Positions 2,089 to 34,434 of a DNA stretch of 38,145 nucleotides are shown here, one piece after another. The stretch covers positions 1-38,145 of the forward strand of contig JANWJT010000016.1 in assembly GCA_025451755.1 (NCBI GenBank). The letters are read 5' to 3'. A model generated the notes under the pieces. That model had not been told where the DNA came from, made no database searches, and was given only the letters and a program-made list of their open reading frames with translations. A program made the translations under genes and the position numbers. How positions within the stretch are numbered: position 1 is the stretch's first letter; each line of letters begins with the position of its first letter. The stretch comes from Candidatus Microgenomates bacterium. GTDB taxonomy: Bacteria; Patescibacteriota; Microgenomatia; Levybacterales; UBA12049.

Positions 2089-3213
2089 TTATGCAGTTAA
2101 AGCAGGAGAGGACTTCTTTTCACTCGTATCGCAACACGAAACATTATCGCTTCCACAATGCTGGCAACTAGAAAGTAGTTCGTTCTCAGGTCTTAAATTT
2201 GTCATTCCACAATCAGGACATGCGAATGTTCTTTTTCCATATTTATCTTCGGGCTGAGTGCTAAAAATAGAGCTGCTTTCTCCGCTTGCACTAAATCCAC
2301 AACTTCCTCCTACAACTGGCGGAGTAATATTTCCATACCTTTCAAAAATCACCTGTGGAGTTTTTTCAAAAACTATTTTAGGAGCTTTTTCTTTACCAAA
2401 AATATAATCTTTTTCTTCCAAAACGCGATTTTCGATTGCATATCTTGCTTTAATAAGTTCTTGATCAGAAGCATTTTCTCTGACAAGCTGAATGAATCCT
2501 CCAACCAAAGGCATTACCAAAGGAATAAGCTTGTCACGCCATTCAATATTAAACTTTTCTGTTTCTCCTATGAGGGTTATTATGTCATCCGATGTTTGAA
2601 TAGTATCTGATTGCCTAATAATTGTTGGATTTGCTAAAAAGTCTGTATCTTTATCGTAATTTTGGACATTTTTGTCGAAGTATTTTAAATATTCTTTGTG
2701 TTCTTCTATTCCTAGCTCATTTCTGTAAGGAATGATCCTTAAGCTTTTTCCCTCTTCTGGATCTTCCAAAACCTGAGCAATAAATGTAAAACTATGCGTT
2801 CCATATCCGTCTTCCTTAGATCCTGGAGGACTAACCCATAATGCCATTGTTCCTACGGGCGCATATGCAAGCTCGTCTTGCAATTTTTGAAAACCCAAAC
2901 ACTCTGCAACTTCTCTTTTTACCGAAAGCCCTCTTTCTTGTCTATAGTCAATTGCTTTTCTGTACACATTTATAATTGGTCCCGGATCTGCATGAGGAGA
3001 TTCCAAATAAGTTTCTCCGACATCGCTTGTTTTGATTGAATAAAAGAACTCATCATACTTTGCGCCTAATCTGTATTCTCCCAGATATCTCAATATATTT
3101 TCACTAATATTTCCTTCTCTCCTCTTAGTAATTTCTTCTTGAGAGTATCCTTGGGGAACTGGCGCATGATAATTTGCTGTATCAAAACCTACTGTATATG
3201 CTTCTGTTCTCAT
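2089..3213 (-). CDS. Hypothetical protein with a C-terminal zinc ribbon
   Basis: 374 residues with no family that I recognise. Residues 1-300 are soluble mixed alpha/beta with many acidic and aromatic residues and no membrane segment. Near residue 305 there is a Gly/Ser/Cys-rich stretch (VVGGSCGFSASGESSS). Near residues 333-358 a four-cysteine zinc ribbon is clear: CPDCGMTN, then CQHCGSDN about 18 residues later. A further CC pair follows at the end (VSCCDTS). The ribbon suggests nucleic-acid or protein binding, but that is inference. The ATG has an AGAGGT Shine-Dalgarno about 8 nt upstream. It lies upstream of the 1601-2029 gene on the same strand with a 59-nt gap, so it may lead the operon ending in the ATPase. 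Confidence 0.65.
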   Translation of the reverse strand: MRTEAYTVGFDTANYHAPVPQGYSQEEITKRREGNISENILRYLGEYRLGAKYDEFFYSIKTSDVGETYLESPHADPGPIINVYRKAIDYRQERGLSVKREVAECLGFQKLQDELAYAPVGTMALWVSPPGSKEDGYGTHSFTFIAQVLEDPEEGKSLRIIPYRNELGIEEHKEYLKYFDKNVQNYDKDTDFLANPTIIRQSDTIQTSDDIITLIGETEKFNIEWRDKLIPLVMPLVGGFIQLVRENASDQELIKARYAIENRVLEEKDYIFGKEKAPKIVFEKTPQVIFERYGNITPPVVGGSCGFSASGESSSIFSTQPEDKYGKRTFACPDCGMTNLRPENELLSSCQHCGSDNVSCCDTSEKKSSPALTA

Positions 3214-3240: not shown

Positions 3241-3285
3241 CTGTCAAGCAGTCGATCTCCTCACTTTGCTCGTCCGGTCCAAATT
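3241..3285. repeat. GC-rich micro-repeat at the end of the adenosyltransferase gene
   Basis: Read on the minus strand, this stretch holds GGACGAGCAAAGTGAGGAGA, which resembles the short GC-rich GAGC(A/G)AAG(C/T)GAGG elements that recur in CPR genomes and stands out from the AT-rich surroundings. It supplies the last codons (TGRAK) and stop of the adenosyltransferase gene. A related string (gagcaaagcgaag) occurs near 33535. Calling it a dispersed element is inference from composition and partial similarity. Confidence 0.35.
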
Positions 3286-3800
3286 GTTTCTTTTTGATTT
3301 TCTTTCATATTTATAAAACGCGACATTGTTAAAAATAAATCGGACAATCTATTTATGTAAACGATTATATCACTCTGTACTTTTTCTTTAGAAGACAAAC
3401 TTACCATTTTTCTTTCGGCTCTGCGAGTTATAGTTCTTGCAATATGTAAAGATGATCCTCCCACTCCTCCTCCTGGCAAAATAAAATTAAAAAGCGGTGG
3501 TAATTCTTTAGTCATTTTATCGATTAGATTTTCAAATTCTTTTGTTCTTTTTGAAAGATCTATTTTTTGATTAGGATTTGCCAAAGCAGCGCCTACTTCA
3601 AACAGGTCAGATTGAATCTTTACCAATTCTTTTCGGATTTCAGATTCAGAATTTCGGATTTGTGATATAGCAAAACCTATCGTACTATTTAGTTCATCAA
3701 CTGTACCGATTGCTTCTATTCGAGGGCTAGCTTTCGAGATTCTAATGCCTGAGTAAAGCCCTGTTTCTCCTTTGTCTCCTGTTTTTGTATAAATTGGCAT
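3261..3800 (-). CDS. Cob(I)yrinic acid a,c-diamide / cobalamin adenosyltransferase, PduO type
   Basis: Transfers the adenosyl group of ATP to cob(I)alamin to make adenosylcobalamin in the cytoplasm. The protein opens with MPIYTKTGDKGETGL, the typical ATP-binding N-terminus of PduO/CobO2-type enzymes. It continues with EAIGTVDELNSTIG, the RRAER motif and a C-terminal YINRLSDLFLTMSRF helix. I start it at the ATG at 3800 (179 aa, normal for the family) rather than the GTG at 3914 used by the ORF track. The ATG has an AGAGGA site with 7-nt spacing, and the extra 38 codons are a translated riboswitch. It lies directly after nrdJ, whose cofactor it makes. The genome presumably salvages cobalamin, since no synthesis genes are visible here. 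The C-terminal codons come from a GC-rich repeat, and a GATTTCAGATTC-type short repeat lies inside the gene near 3632-3661. Confidence 0.93.
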   Translation of the reverse strand: MPIYTKTGDKGETGLYSGIRISKASPRIEAIGTVDELNSTIGFAISQIRNSESEIRKELVKIQSDLFEVGAALANPNQKIDLSKRTKEFENLIDKMTKELPPLFNFILPGGGVGGSSLHIARTITRRAERKMVSLSSKEKVQSDIIVYINRLSDLFLTMSRFINMKENQKETIWTGRAK

Positions 3801-3807
3801 AAAAAAA

Positions 3808-3813
3808 TCCTCT
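3808..3813 (-). promoter_or_regulatory. Shine-Dalgarno that decides the adenosyltransferase start
   Basis: AGAGGA (minus strand) followed by seven T and then ATG at 3800. It rules in the MPIYTK start and rules out the GTG at 3914. The GAGGA core is complementary to TCCTC at 3828-3832, so the riboswitch expression platform can in principle hide it. Confidence 0.7.
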
Positions 3814-3816
3814 TTT

Positions 3817-3940
3817 GGTTTCCCTAGGAGGACGAAAACAAACTCCAGCTCGGGAAACCTTTGCGTATGTAGTTTTCTGGATTTAACAGTAGCGGCTCTT
3901 CCATCGAATTTCACGATGTTTACCTACATACAGGTTTTAT
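3817..3940 (-). promoter_or_regulatory. Candidate cobalamin (AdoCbl) riboswitch with translational expression platform
   Basis: The minus-strand leader has the conserved cobalamin-aptamer core. GTGAAATTC is closed by CATCG/CGATG (the P4-like arm), and CCGCTACTGTTA matches the family's CCGCCACTGTnA. A 9-bp P3-like helix, TGTATGTAG with CTACATACG, encloses them. The downstream part is a long hairpin, GGTTTCCC (3852-3859) with GGGAAACC (3817-3824), with inner GGAG/CTCC pairing. The TCCTCC at 3827-3832 can pair either inside this hairpin or with the Shine-Dalgarno GAGGA, a classic switch for translation control. AAACC near 3933-3937 could also compete for GGTTT. A canonical B12 box is weak (GAGCTGGAG at most), so the subclass is unclear. 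A TACAAT at 3941-3946 is a possible -10; it would start the RNA near 3934, so the AAACC pairing is uncertain. Confidence 0.72.
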
Positions 3941-3962
3941 ATTGTACTACTTTTTATTTTGT

Positions 3963-3976
3963 CCCGCCATGGCGGG
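3963..3976. repeat. Perfect 14-bp palindrome CCCGCCATGGCGGG
   Basis: A perfect GC-rich palindrome in an AT-rich gap, between the nrdJ stop and the riboswitch leader of the adenosyltransferase. It sits where the -35 of the leader's promoter would be if TACAAT at 3941-3946 is the -10. It lacks a U-tract on the minus strand, so it is not a standard terminator. It may be an operator, a processing hairpin between nrdJ and the adenosyltransferase, or one of the dispersed palindromic elements. Confidence 0.6.
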
Positions 3977-3982
3977 ATTAGT

Positions 3983-6460
3983 CTAACACTCTGAATATCC
4001 ACAGCTATAGCATTTTCTGCAACCTTCTTCGTAAGCCAGACTTCCGCCACCGCACTCAGGGCAAAGATCGTAAAGGCTTGTTCCGCTCATTTCATGACTA
4101 TTATCTTCTCCCATAATCCCGCTTGCCTTTCCAACTAATGATAGCTGTTGTAATTCTATAATATCGGAAGTTTTTTCACTTTCTATTTTTCCGTTTCCGT
4201 TAGATATTCCATTTCCGTTTGCTGTAGTTTTGGTATGTTCATTGGTTTCTACTTCAACTTTATTTATGTCACTACTTATAGGCGTTGCCGAAACATTTCT
4301 ATCTTCAACTTTACCATTAACTGCAAAATCAAAATGCATAGCAAGTACTTTTGCAACTCCGTCCGGAAGAGATCTTACTTTATCTTTTCCAAATCCGACA
4401 CTTCGTGCCCCTCCGATTCCCGCAAGCTGCGCAACCACTTGTCTTATTTTCTCCCTTGGAGAAAGCCCTCCCAGGAGTCTTAGATTTAGAGAAATGGTAC
4501 GCCCCAGAGCATCGGCCATTGCTGCAACATCAGATCCTGATTTTCCAATTGTTATAAAAACTTCAAATGGCTCTCGGTTTTCATTATGATTAATAGTAAT
4601 GTATGTTTTTCCAACAGGTGTTTGAATTTGATATGTTACTCCTTCAAGCTGCATTGGCCTTGGAACAACTGGCTTATGTCCGACTGCTGGAAGAATTTCG
4701 AGCTTAACATCCTCTGGTTTTTTATCTTCAATTCTTGAGAGAACCCCTTCTCTGGAACCATCTCTCATATAGGTTACTCCCTTAAGTCCCAAATCATAAG
4801 CTGTCATATATAGAGTCTTTACATCTTCAATTGTGTGGGAATTTGGAGCATTTACTGTTTTAGAAATAGATGCATCTATATACTTTTGGGCAATTGCCTG
4901 AACTTGTGCATGCTCAAGAGGAGTTAGATCATTCGCCGAAACAAAATAATCTGGCTTTTCCTCATTTGGGTTATCTTTTTTCCACTGTTCAAAAAGCGGA
5001 TGGTACATAATATGTTCTCCGGTTCTATCTTTTCTCATAAAAGTGAATTCATAGACTGGCTCAATTCCCGAAGTAACACCAGACAAAAGAGAGGTGGTTC
5101 CTGTTGGAGCAATAGTTAACAAAACCGCATTTCTTATTCCATTTTTTGCAATCTTTTTCTGAATTTCTTTTGGCAATTCTTTAATATGATAACCTTCTAA
5201 ATATTTTGCTTTATTGAATTTTGGAAATTCTCCTTTTTCTTTTGCAATTTCGCAAGATTCTTCATATGCGCTATTTCGTAAGGTTTCAAAAATTTTGTCT
5301 ATAGTTGGAAGAGATTCTTCGGCTCCATATCGAAGCTTCATTTTAATAAGGGTGTCTCCAAGACCCATTATTCCAAGACCCGTTCTTCTTATATCTTTGG
5401 CTATTTTCTCGTTTTGTTTAAAGAAATAGTAAGTTTTATCTATAACGTTATCCAGAAATCTCATTGCGGTCTTAACATCTTCAGAAAAACTTTTGTAGTC
5501 AAATTTCTCGTCTTTTACATAAACTGCCAAGTTCATTGCTCCCAAATTGCATACTGCCCAGCCTCCTAACGGCTGTTCTCCGCAGGGATTTGTTGCGATT
5601 AATTTTTCAAAATACCAGGTGTTGCTTCTTTTATTACTTCTTTCAAGAAAATGAAGACCGGGCTCTGCGCTTCTCCATGCTGCTTCGCAGATTAAATTCC
5701 AAAGTTCTCGTGCTTTTACAGTTTTATGTACTTTTACCTTGCCGCCTATTTTCTTCCAATCATCTATTTCTCCGTTCCATTTTGTATCGTATTTTGGATC
5801 ATCTAAGTCTGGGTAAACTAAATCCCAATCTTTATCTTTTTTAACTGCCTCCATGAAGTTATCGGAAATGCAAACAGAAAGATTCGCTCCGTTTATTTTA
5901 GAAAGATCCTGTTTTACAGTTATAAATTCTTCAACATCCGGGTGCCAGTCCCAAAGCATAAGCATTGTTGCTCCGCGTCTTGTACCCCCTTGCTGAACGA
6001 CATCATGAGTTGCGTAAGAAAATAGTCCTGCCCAAGTTACAGGACCAGAAGACGTGCCATTTACTTTTTTAACCCTTGCTCCTCTTGGCCTTAAAGATGA
6101 AAGATTAAGACCAACTCCTCCTGATCTTGATTGAATTTCTACCAATTGTTTTAAAGATTCCAAAATTCCTTCTCGTGAATCTTTTGGAGATGGAATTACA
6201 AAACAATTAAAGTAAGTTACCTGATAATTTGTTCCTGCACCAGACAAAATCCTTCCACCAGGAACAAATTTAAAGTCCTTCATTACACCGTAGAATTTTT
6301 TCTCCCAATGAGCTCTTTTTGTTTTACTTTCGTTTCCGGCAATACCCTTTGCTACTCTTCTCCACATTTGCTCAGGATTATTTTCTAAGAGCTCTCCTTT
6401 TACGCCCTTTAAAGCGTACCTATCTAAAAATACTTTTTTTCTTATTCCATCAAGTTTCAT
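3983..6460 (-). CDS. nrdJ: Adenosylcobalamin-dependent (class II) ribonucleotide reductase
   Basis: Reduces ribonucleotides to deoxyribonucleotides using a thiyl radical made from AdoCbl; cytoplasmic, oxygen-tolerant. Visible hallmarks are one redox Cys in YFNCF (C86), the catalytic N-C-E set in NPCGEQP (N291, C293, E295), the partner Cys in WAVCNLG (C304), and the phosphate-binding loop LTIAPTGTTSLLSG. A C-terminal tail, CPECGGG...CRKCYSCGYSEC, supplies the cysteines that re-reduce the active site or bind zinc. At 825 aa it is in the usual range for NrdJ, and no ATP-cone is seen at the N-terminus, which starts directly with MKLDGIRKKVFLDRYA. It follows the DUF6941-like gene by 3 nt and nrdR upstream, so NrdR control is expected. 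The linker before the Cys tail (about 745-785) is low complexity (ANGNGISNGNG). Confidence 0.97.
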   Translation of the reverse strand: MKLDGIRKKVFLDRYALKGVKGELLENNPEQMWRRVAKGIAGNESKTKRAHWEKKFYGVMKDFKFVPGGRILSGAGTNYQVTYFNCFVIPSPKDSREGILESLKQLVEIQSRSGGVGLNLSSLRPRGARVKKVNGTSSGPVTWAGLFSYATHDVVQQGGTRRGATMLMLWDWHPDVEEFITVKQDLSKINGANLSVCISDNFMEAVKKDKDWDLVYPDLDDPKYDTKWNGEIDDWKKIGGKVKVHKTVKARELWNLICEAAWRSAEPGLHFLERSNKRSNTWYFEKLIATNPCGEQPLGGWAVCNLGAMNLAVYVKDEKFDYKSFSEDVKTAMRFLDNVIDKTYYFFKQNEKIAKDIRRTGLGIMGLGDTLIKMKLRYGAEESLPTIDKIFETLRNSAYEESCEIAKEKGEFPKFNKAKYLEGYHIKELPKEIQKKIAKNGIRNAVLLTIAPTGTTSLLSGVTSGIEPVYEFTFMRKDRTGEHIMYHPLFEQWKKDNPNEEKPDYFVSANDLTPLEHAQVQAIAQKYIDASISKTVNAPNSHTIEDVKTLYMTAYDLGLKGVTYMRDGSREGVLSRIEDKKPEDVKLEILPAVGHKPVVPRPMQLEGVTYQIQTPVGKTYITINHNENREPFEVFITIGKSGSDVAAMADALGRTISLNLRLLGGLSPREKIRQVVAQLAGIGGARSVGFGKDKVRSLPDGVAKVLAMHFDFAVNGKVEDRNVSATPISSDINKVEVETNEHTKTTANGNGISNGNGKIESEKTSDIIELQQLSLVGKASGIMGEDNSHEMSGTSLYDLCPECGGGSLAYEEGCRKCYSCGYSEC

Positions 6461-6463
6461 AAT

Positions 6464-6883
6464 TTAATTTGGTAATTTTATATCATTAAGACTATATTTA
6501 TTCTGATCAATCACTTTTAATAAAGTTGATCCAACTTCTTGTTTTTCTTCATTTAGAATGAACCTGTATTCTCCCTCTTCTTTAAAACCAAGACCTGTAA
6601 GCTCTACTATTAAATTGTTTTTACCATTAGGACCAGTAGAAGTATCAAGATTAAAACTGCTTTGCTTACCGGCAAAACCTTTTGATGGTTCAATTTTTAA
6701 AGTTAGCTTATAAGAAGTTGAAGGCACACCGCTAACTGTTGCTACAAAAAATGCACGATGAATTCCACCAGGAAATTGCTGAACTCTTAATTCATCAAAA
6801 ATACCGTTAATATTTAATTTTCCCTCCCGAGATATACTTGCGTAATCGCAAAGCGCTATAATTTCTGTTTTTAATTGTTTCAT
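6464..6883 (-). CDS. DUF6941-like beta-sandwich protein between nrdR and nrdJ
   Basis: 139 residues with no catalytic motif, signal peptide or membrane segment. The pattern CDYASISREGKLNINGIFDEL, then HRAFFVATV and LTLKIEP, then GEYRFIL, resembles the DUF6941 family, a small beta-rich protein of unknown function; I recall this from family patterns and did not search. It sits 1 nt after the nrdR stop and 3 nt before the nrdJ start, so all three are almost certainly one transcript. The position suggests a link to ribonucleotide reduction or simply passenger status. In other genomes this family is not known to me as an RNR partner. Confidence 0.7.
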   Translation of the reverse strand: MKQLKTEIIALCDYASISREGKLNINGIFDELRVQQFPGGIHRAFFVATVSGVPSTSYKLTLKIEPSKGFAGKQSSFNLDTSTGPNGKNNLIVELTGLGFKEEGEYRFILNEEKQEVGSTLLKVIDQNKYSLNDIKLPN

Positions 6884-6884
6884 A

Positions 6885-7334
6885 TTATTTTATTAGTCTT
6901 TTTAATTCTTTCTCGAAATCTTCAACATCTACAAATCTTCTAAAAACACTCGAAAATCTAATATATGCCACTTTATCGATTTTCTTAAGTCTTGTTGCCA
7001 CCAATTGCCCTATTTTTTTACTGTCTACTTCTACCGAATCTGCTCCCCTCAATTCTCTTTCGATCTCCGTTACTATTCTTTCGATGTCCTCCATCGAGAC
7101 TTTAGTTTTTTCGCAAGATCTTATTATTCCTCTTTTTAATTTATCTCTGTCAAACTGCTCTCTTCTTGCGTCTTTTTTTATAACTACTAAATTTATGTTC
7201 TCAACTCTCTCGTAAGTAGTAAATCTTTTTTCGCATTTTAAACATTCTCTTCTTCTTCTAATAGTTCCTAAATCTTCACTATCTCTTGTTTCTACAACTT
7301 CTGTTTCGGACAATCCGCAGTAGGGACATTTCAT
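6885..7334 (-). CDS. nrdR: Transcriptional repressor NrdR
   Basis: Represses ribonucleotide reductase genes when (d)ATP levels are high. The N-terminal zinc ribbon is intact (C3, C6, C31, C34: CPYC...CLKC) with the basic RRRRE segment that contacts DNA. Residues about 49-137 form the ATP-cone (VIKKDARREQFDRDKLKRGI ... FRRFVDVEDF). At 149 aa it is typical for the family. It heads the operon with the DUF6941-like gene and nrdJ. A candidate NrdR box lies 64 bp upstream, which implies autoregulation together with nrdJ. Confidence 0.97.
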   Translation of the reverse strand: MKCPYCGLSETEVVETRDSEDLGTIRRRRECLKCEKRFTTYERVENINLVVIKKDARREQFDRDKLKRGIIRSCEKTKVSMEDIERIVTEIERELRGADSVEVDSKKIGQLVATRLKKIDKVAYIRFSSVFRRFVDVEDFEKELKRLIK

Positions 7335-34029: not shown

Positions 34030-34038
34030 ATTAATTTG

Positions 34039-34434
34039 TGGAGATGTCCGAGAGTGACTCGGAGTCCAAGAAAGTATAATTAAAAACTTCTACAAGCTTA
34101 GCCAATTTTTAAATCTCGCAATATTTTCTCCAACCGGCAGGAATAAATAAAGCCAAAGGTTTACTCCGATTTGATCGGAGTTTATAAATTCGAATAAGAA
34201 ACAAACCTATTTCTTATTTATAGCTCAACTTTATTTATGCTCATATAATCTCGTTGAGAAAGACATTATGAACAGGTCTTCTTAGTTTAAGTATGCGTTT
34301 TGAGGCGCATAGGCATAAGCCAATCGACCGCTAAAATTGCTTTTAGCATTTATATTTTGATTGTTTTTAACGACTGCCAATCAAAGTCGGCTTGCAGTTT
34401 TTAAAGTACATCCCTGTCGATGCAATGCATCCCC
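34039..34434 (-). ncRNA. ssrA: tmRNA (SsrA)
   Basis: About 396 nt on the minus strand. The 5' end GGGGATGCA and 3' CATCTCC plus A form a 7-bp acceptor stem with one G-U; CCA is not encoded. The 5' part contains TGCATCGACAGGGATG, matching the tmRNA hallmark GGATTCGACGGGAT. Pseudoknot 1 is clear: CGACT/AGTCG stem with TTTGATTG pairing CAATCAAA. Eight nt later the resume codon GCT opens a tag reading AKSNFSGRLAYAYAPQ and ending NAYLN before TAA (21 codons). A GAAGAC...GTCTTTC hairpin follows. The T-arm TCCGA/TCGGA has an odd loop (GTCACTC instead of TTCRANN). The tag lacks the usual ALAA end. Its partner smpB is adjacent. Confidence 0.87.

Follow-up and report, generated by a model that had tools for sequence, protein, structure and literature searches.

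An AdoCbl-II-type riboswitch between nrdJ and a cobalamin adenosyltransferase gene in a Candidatus Microgenomates bacterium

The (−) strand of a 38,145-nt stretch of the Candidatus Microgenomates contig JANWJT010000016.1 (the whole stretch is referred to here as the window) encodes a PduO-type cobalamin adenosyltransferase (ATR; 3261–3800; PF01923, E = 4.3e-57), for which the open-reading-frame track chose a GTG start at 3914, the frame being open from that GTG down to an ATG at 3798–3800. The locus raises the question of whether the 38 codons between the two are the N terminus of the enzyme or, as a first-pass annotation had claimed, a false extension read from a cobalamin riboswitch in the leader, and, if the latter, how such a switch would act.

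The adenosyltransferase start and the aptamer in its leader

Homologous adenosyltransferases align with the window protein from MPIYT and start at the same MxIYT, and a Shine-Dalgarno sequence, GAGGA, lies directly before ATG 3800. Among 21 riboswitch-linked adenosyltransferases, the one in the window included, the upstream frame is stopped within 28 codons in 13, and where it stays open the residues of the extension are dissimilar among homologues. A genuine 38-residue extension with an accidental likeness to RNA would explain the open frame from GTG 3914 to ATG 3800, yet it has to contend with these interrupted or dissimilar upstream frames, with the Shine-Dalgarno sequence of ATG 3800 and with the strong RNA covariation described below, and we regard its probability as negligible. 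ATG 3800 is very probably where translation begins; the 38 codons, which run through the aptamer, are leader RNA. The annotated start of the gene is corrected accordingly, and the extension is, as claimed, false, being unconserved at the protein level.

An Rfam scan of the whole window places an RF01689 (AdoCbl-II) match at 3862–3943 on the (−) strand, with 39.6 bits against a gathering cut-off of 36.5; it is full length (positions 1–81 of 81), and its E value, computed over all 38 kb of the window, is 3.7e-6. It is the sole cobalamin-clan match in the window, and no second RF01689-type element was found in the source genome. A covariance-model search at the gathering cut-off gave no RF00174 (Cobalamin riboswitch) match in the window or the genome; clan overlaps were reduced to the best match, RF01689, and RF01482 (AdoCbl riboswitch) is absent from the output after such reduction. 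The earlier suggestion of a compact form that lacks a large P6 extension fits RF01689, not RF00174.

The aptamer forms a P3–P6 four-way junction. Its enclosing helix, P3, joins the 5′ strand GTATGTAG (3924–3931) to the 3′ strand CTACATAC (3865–3872), and within it lie the P4 hairpin CATCG-TGAAATT-CGATG (3902–3918; 96% of cells paired), P5 (3891–3899; 100% of cells paired, covarying) with its loop L5, AGCCG (3893–3897), the kissing-loop partner, and P6, CTG-TTAAATC-CAG (3877–3889; 100% of cells paired). The CATCG/CGATG stem, L5/P6 and the enclosing helix were all found where the first-pass annotation had put them. Among 26 relatives, both-side changes occur at all eight pairs of P3 and at each of the five pairs of P4. 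The aptamer covariation score is 0.674 in this 26-sequence alignment, which was built from sequence alone, although one of its rows served for drawing the structure, against 0.186 ± 0.022 for shuffles and at most 0.188 for slid partners; it is 0.689 in a 108-sequence alignment fitted to the structure, against 0.168 for shuffles and at most 0.186 for slid partners. Both alignments alike show both-side changes in all four helices. With extensive compensatory change in homologous leaders and a match above the gathering score, the proposed cobalamin riboswitch is borne out. The covarying junction and the adjoining B12-related genes (ATR downstream, nrdJ upstream) place the element in RF01689: it is a real riboswitch of a known family and an ordinary kind, in a little-studied setting.

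The span originally proposed, 3817–3940, covers nearly all of the aptamer and the antiterminator (3817–3859) but narrowly misses the terminator-like stem and ribosome-binding site (3801–3833). The P13/L13 hairpin, the switching platform and the downstream protein family were absent from that proposal and came to light in the follow-up.

The P13/L13 hairpin and its kissing loop

The expression platform starts at 3843–3856 (−) with a short hairpin, P13 (TTCC/GGAG), whose loop L13, CGAGCT (3847–3852), pairs as CG(A)GCU with the AGCCG of L5. A small hairpin directly 3′ of the aptamer is present in most of 126 loci, with a near-invariant CG-n-GCA loop. Its stem covaries freely, with 427 of 484 cells paired against a shuffled mean of 306 and maximum of 328. 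The L5–L13 kiss, 5 bp with a 1–2-nt bulge, can form in 114/126 loci; once the downstream sequence is shuffled, the rate is 2.3%. According to PMC10907184, it is such a bulge, one or two bases long, within the helix between the loops that makes docking depend on cobalamin.

The L5 consensus, TGCCG, is kept in 120 of the 126 loci, and all six loci that depart from it carry a matching L13. The window itself shows such a two-sided change, AGCCG:CG(A)GCU in place of UGCCG:CG(A)GCA, which recurs in locus L118, the closest relative that has the same leader, while a same-genus genome has the consensus. This change and that of L016 (UACCG:CG(A)GU(C)A) were found by script; those of L061 (GGCCG:CG(A)GCC, where the P13 stem is poor), L105 (UCUCG:CG(A)AGA) and L072 and L073 (UCGCG with CGCG(G)A and CGCG(CC)A) were read by eye. 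For L105_1669 the automatic kissing-loop pick is a chance site; by eye, the better fit is a CGAAGA loop that lies closer to the aptamer. Two other pairings were dropped. CCCGAG/CTCGGG as P13 would have meant an activating switch, and covariation places P13 at the short stem around CGAGCA; a pairing of AAAUCC in L6/P6 with the Shine-Dalgarno region (GGAUUU) uses bases that belong to L6/P6, and the match is not kept in relatives.

Expression platform, sign of regulation and ligand

Downstream of the aptamer, two further structures can be drawn on the (−) strand. The more stable is an antiterminator hairpin, GGTTTCCCGAGCTGGAG...CTCCTAGGGAAACC (3817–3859; −17.1 kcal/mol), which is mutually exclusive with docked P13/L13; the other is a terminator-like stem, GTCCTC...GAGGAT (3807–3833; −8.6 kcal/mol), which is followed by a T run and whose 3′ arm contains the Shine-Dalgarno GAGGA. 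In the window this stem is weak, with six pairs and a long loop, and promoter and standard terminator scans of 3700–4100, the latter allowing loops of up to 8, returned nothing. Strong terminators occupy the counterpart position in Levybacteria relatives; in L118, there is no clear terminator at that site. Across the relatives, 56 loci have an intrinsic-terminator-like hairpin after P13/L13, usually ending a few bases before the ATG, and in these terminator-type loci the P13 5′ strand and L13 are complementary to the 5′ arm and loop of the terminator. The antiterminator is the more stable of the two in 43 of the 56, the window among them, and its flank covariation in 47 terminator-type relatives is 109, against a shuffled maximum of 102. 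A further 54 loci, most of which on inspection lie outside the family to which the window belongs, have their ATG 8–24 bases after L13; docking would cover the ribosome-binding site or start there, as has been described for env8 (PMC10907184).

We propose the following mechanism. With no ligand bound, the antiterminator would take up the P13 5′ strand and L13, leaving the Shine-Dalgarno sequence free. With AdoCbl bound, L13 would dock on L5 and block the antiterminator, so that the 3807–3833 stem could form, transcription would end at the T run and/or the Shine-Dalgarno sequence would be hidden, and the adenosyltransferase gene would be switched off. Because docking and the antiterminator are mutually exclusive, ligand should favour the terminator, that is, repression. 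Translational masking may be the mode that matters in the window, given its weak stem, missed by the scan, and the lack of a clear terminator in L118. nrdJ would escape control, since it lies upstream and is transcribed before the switch. As judged from sequence and covariation, the aptamer, P13/L13, the kiss, the alternative antiterminator pairing and the start at ATG 3800 are all in place, and we hold it highly probable that 3796–3943 (−) is a complete AdoCbl-II-type riboswitch by which abundant AdoCbl represses the adenosyltransferase gene and probably also the gene that follows.

Both the sign of regulation and the identity of the ligand are inferred here, and each has an alternative. Cobalamin riboswitches can be activating, and an activating corrinoid riboswitch that uses P13 as its antiterminator exists (PMC10653944), so ligand might instead stabilise a hairpin that prevents termination. 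However, the P13 that covaries is the short stem around L13, which has no strand in common with the terminator; docking is precluded by the hairpin that does overlap the terminator, since this is built from L13 and the 5′ strand of P13; and in the 54 other loci P13/L13 stands 8–24 nt from an ATG that docking would hide. Activation is improbable in our view, and repression remains the preferred reading. As for the ligand, no protein with a Pfam B12-binding domain was found elsewhere in the source genome, which is about 90% complete, making NrdJ its only apparent B12 enzyme and AdoCbl a plausible signal; the switch would then provide AdoCbl feedback on its own synthesis. The compact class II also includes the hydroxocobalamin-binding env8 (PMC10907184), and ligand selectivity is not readable with certainty from the sequences here, so the switch might sense hydroxo- or methylcobalamin, with unprocessed B12 setting the level of adenosyltransferase. 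Against this, the one B12 enzyme detected in the genome is AdoCbl-dependent, and a repressing architecture is in keeping with feedback by AdoCbl as the end product; we consider the hydroxo-/methylcobalamin alternative unlikely, though a better candidate than activation, and retain AdoCbl as the presumed ligand.

The locus, its proposed regulon and known systems

The riboswitch sits between the adenosyltransferase gene and, upstream, a gene for a class II, AdoCbl-dependent type ribonucleotide reductase (nrdJ; 3983–6460 (−); PF02867, PF00317, PF12637), whose best matches are from Ca. Levybacteria RIFCSPLOWO2_01_FULL_38_21 (83%) and a Levyibacteriota bin (80%); by these matches the source genome is Levybacteria-like (Microgenomates/Patescibacteria). 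Directly upstream of nrdJ lie a DUF6941 gene (6464–6883) and nrdR (6885–7334), both (−), an arrangement that suggests an operon nrdR-DUF6941-nrdJ-[riboswitch]-ATR. The interval from the nrdJ stop to the aptamer contains a perfect palindrome, CCCGCCATGGCGGG (3963–3976), without a T run; similar repeats, CCGCCAGCTGGCGG, are found in the leaders of the relatives L001 and L123. Elsewhere in the window, Rfam places a tmRNA at 34036–34434 (−) with 98 bits, and ARAGORN finds none.

RF01689 elements occur in 34 of 59 close relatives and in 187 of 374 class genomes (above the gathering score in 103 of these), and when a model built from 26 of these was run on 380 genomes drawn from across the phylum, it matched in 110. 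In some genomes (L003, L063, L105 and L118) two copies of the riboswitch share an operon; those at L003 1498–1733 stand in tandem, about 70 bases apart. A search of an open-access library yielded no description of cobalamin riboswitches in CPR, Patescibacteria or Microgenomates, which is weak evidence of novelty, subscription papers being mostly outside its scope.

The next gene behind the adenosyltransferase encodes an uncharacterised zinc-ribbon family protein of 374 residues (2089–3213 (−)). Among 122 proteins encoded behind these riboswitches, 70 belong to this family, the foremost target of the switches in the class; 21 are adenosyltransferases (PF01923), 12 are DUF4430 proteins and 2 are DUF6580 proteins. 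DUF4430 may be akin to a transcobalamin domain, and DUF6580 to an S component of the ECF type. The zinc-ribbon family has four conserved cysteines; apart from weak matches to zinc ribbons, neither Pfam nor NCBIfam assigns it to a known family. The model of the window's member is confident (mean pLDDT 86), and in a fold search no solved (PDB) or viral structure matched it at E below 0.001. Nearly confined to the source class, the family occurs in 197 of its 374 genomes and shares 128 of them with the riboswitch (odds ratio 3.7, p = 1.4e-9, uncorrected for kinship). We tentatively propose, at somewhat less than even chances, a class-wide CPR AdoCbl-II regulon whose main target, this undescribed family of unmatched fold, would take part in acquiring or handling B12 for the AdoCbl-dependent ribonucleotide reductase.

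Collectively, these data give a covariation-backed record of cobalamin-sensing RNA control in CPR bacteria. The switching mechanism is well supported, and the regulon points to an uncharacterised protein family; the link to B12 opens the function of this anonymous, class-wide family to testing. The arrangement suggests that nrdJ-bearing CPR genomes regulate the supply of B12, not the enzyme itself.

A comparison with known systems shows that the aptamer agrees with RF01689 over its full length, above the gathering score, and in its compact P3–P6 core without a large P6 extension. However, the elements described here are spread across CPR bacteria, often beside nrdJ, and the Rfam model ends before P13/L13. 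In the window, as in the class II hydroxocobalamin riboswitch env8, P13 is a short hairpin and the kiss between its loop and L5 contains a bulge, and the translational platforms of other members in the source class look similar to that of env8; in the window, by contrast, the hairpin lies about 45 nt from the ATG, and switching between antiterminator and terminator (or Shine-Dalgarno) is predicted. The Priestia megaterium metE corrinoid riboswitch follows the same logic, in that docked P13 frees the terminator and the ligand-free antiterminator uses P13 sequence (PMC10653944), yet its aptamer is larger, its kissing loop has no bulge, and its antiterminator takes the 3′ side of P13, whereas that of the window takes the 5′ side and L13.
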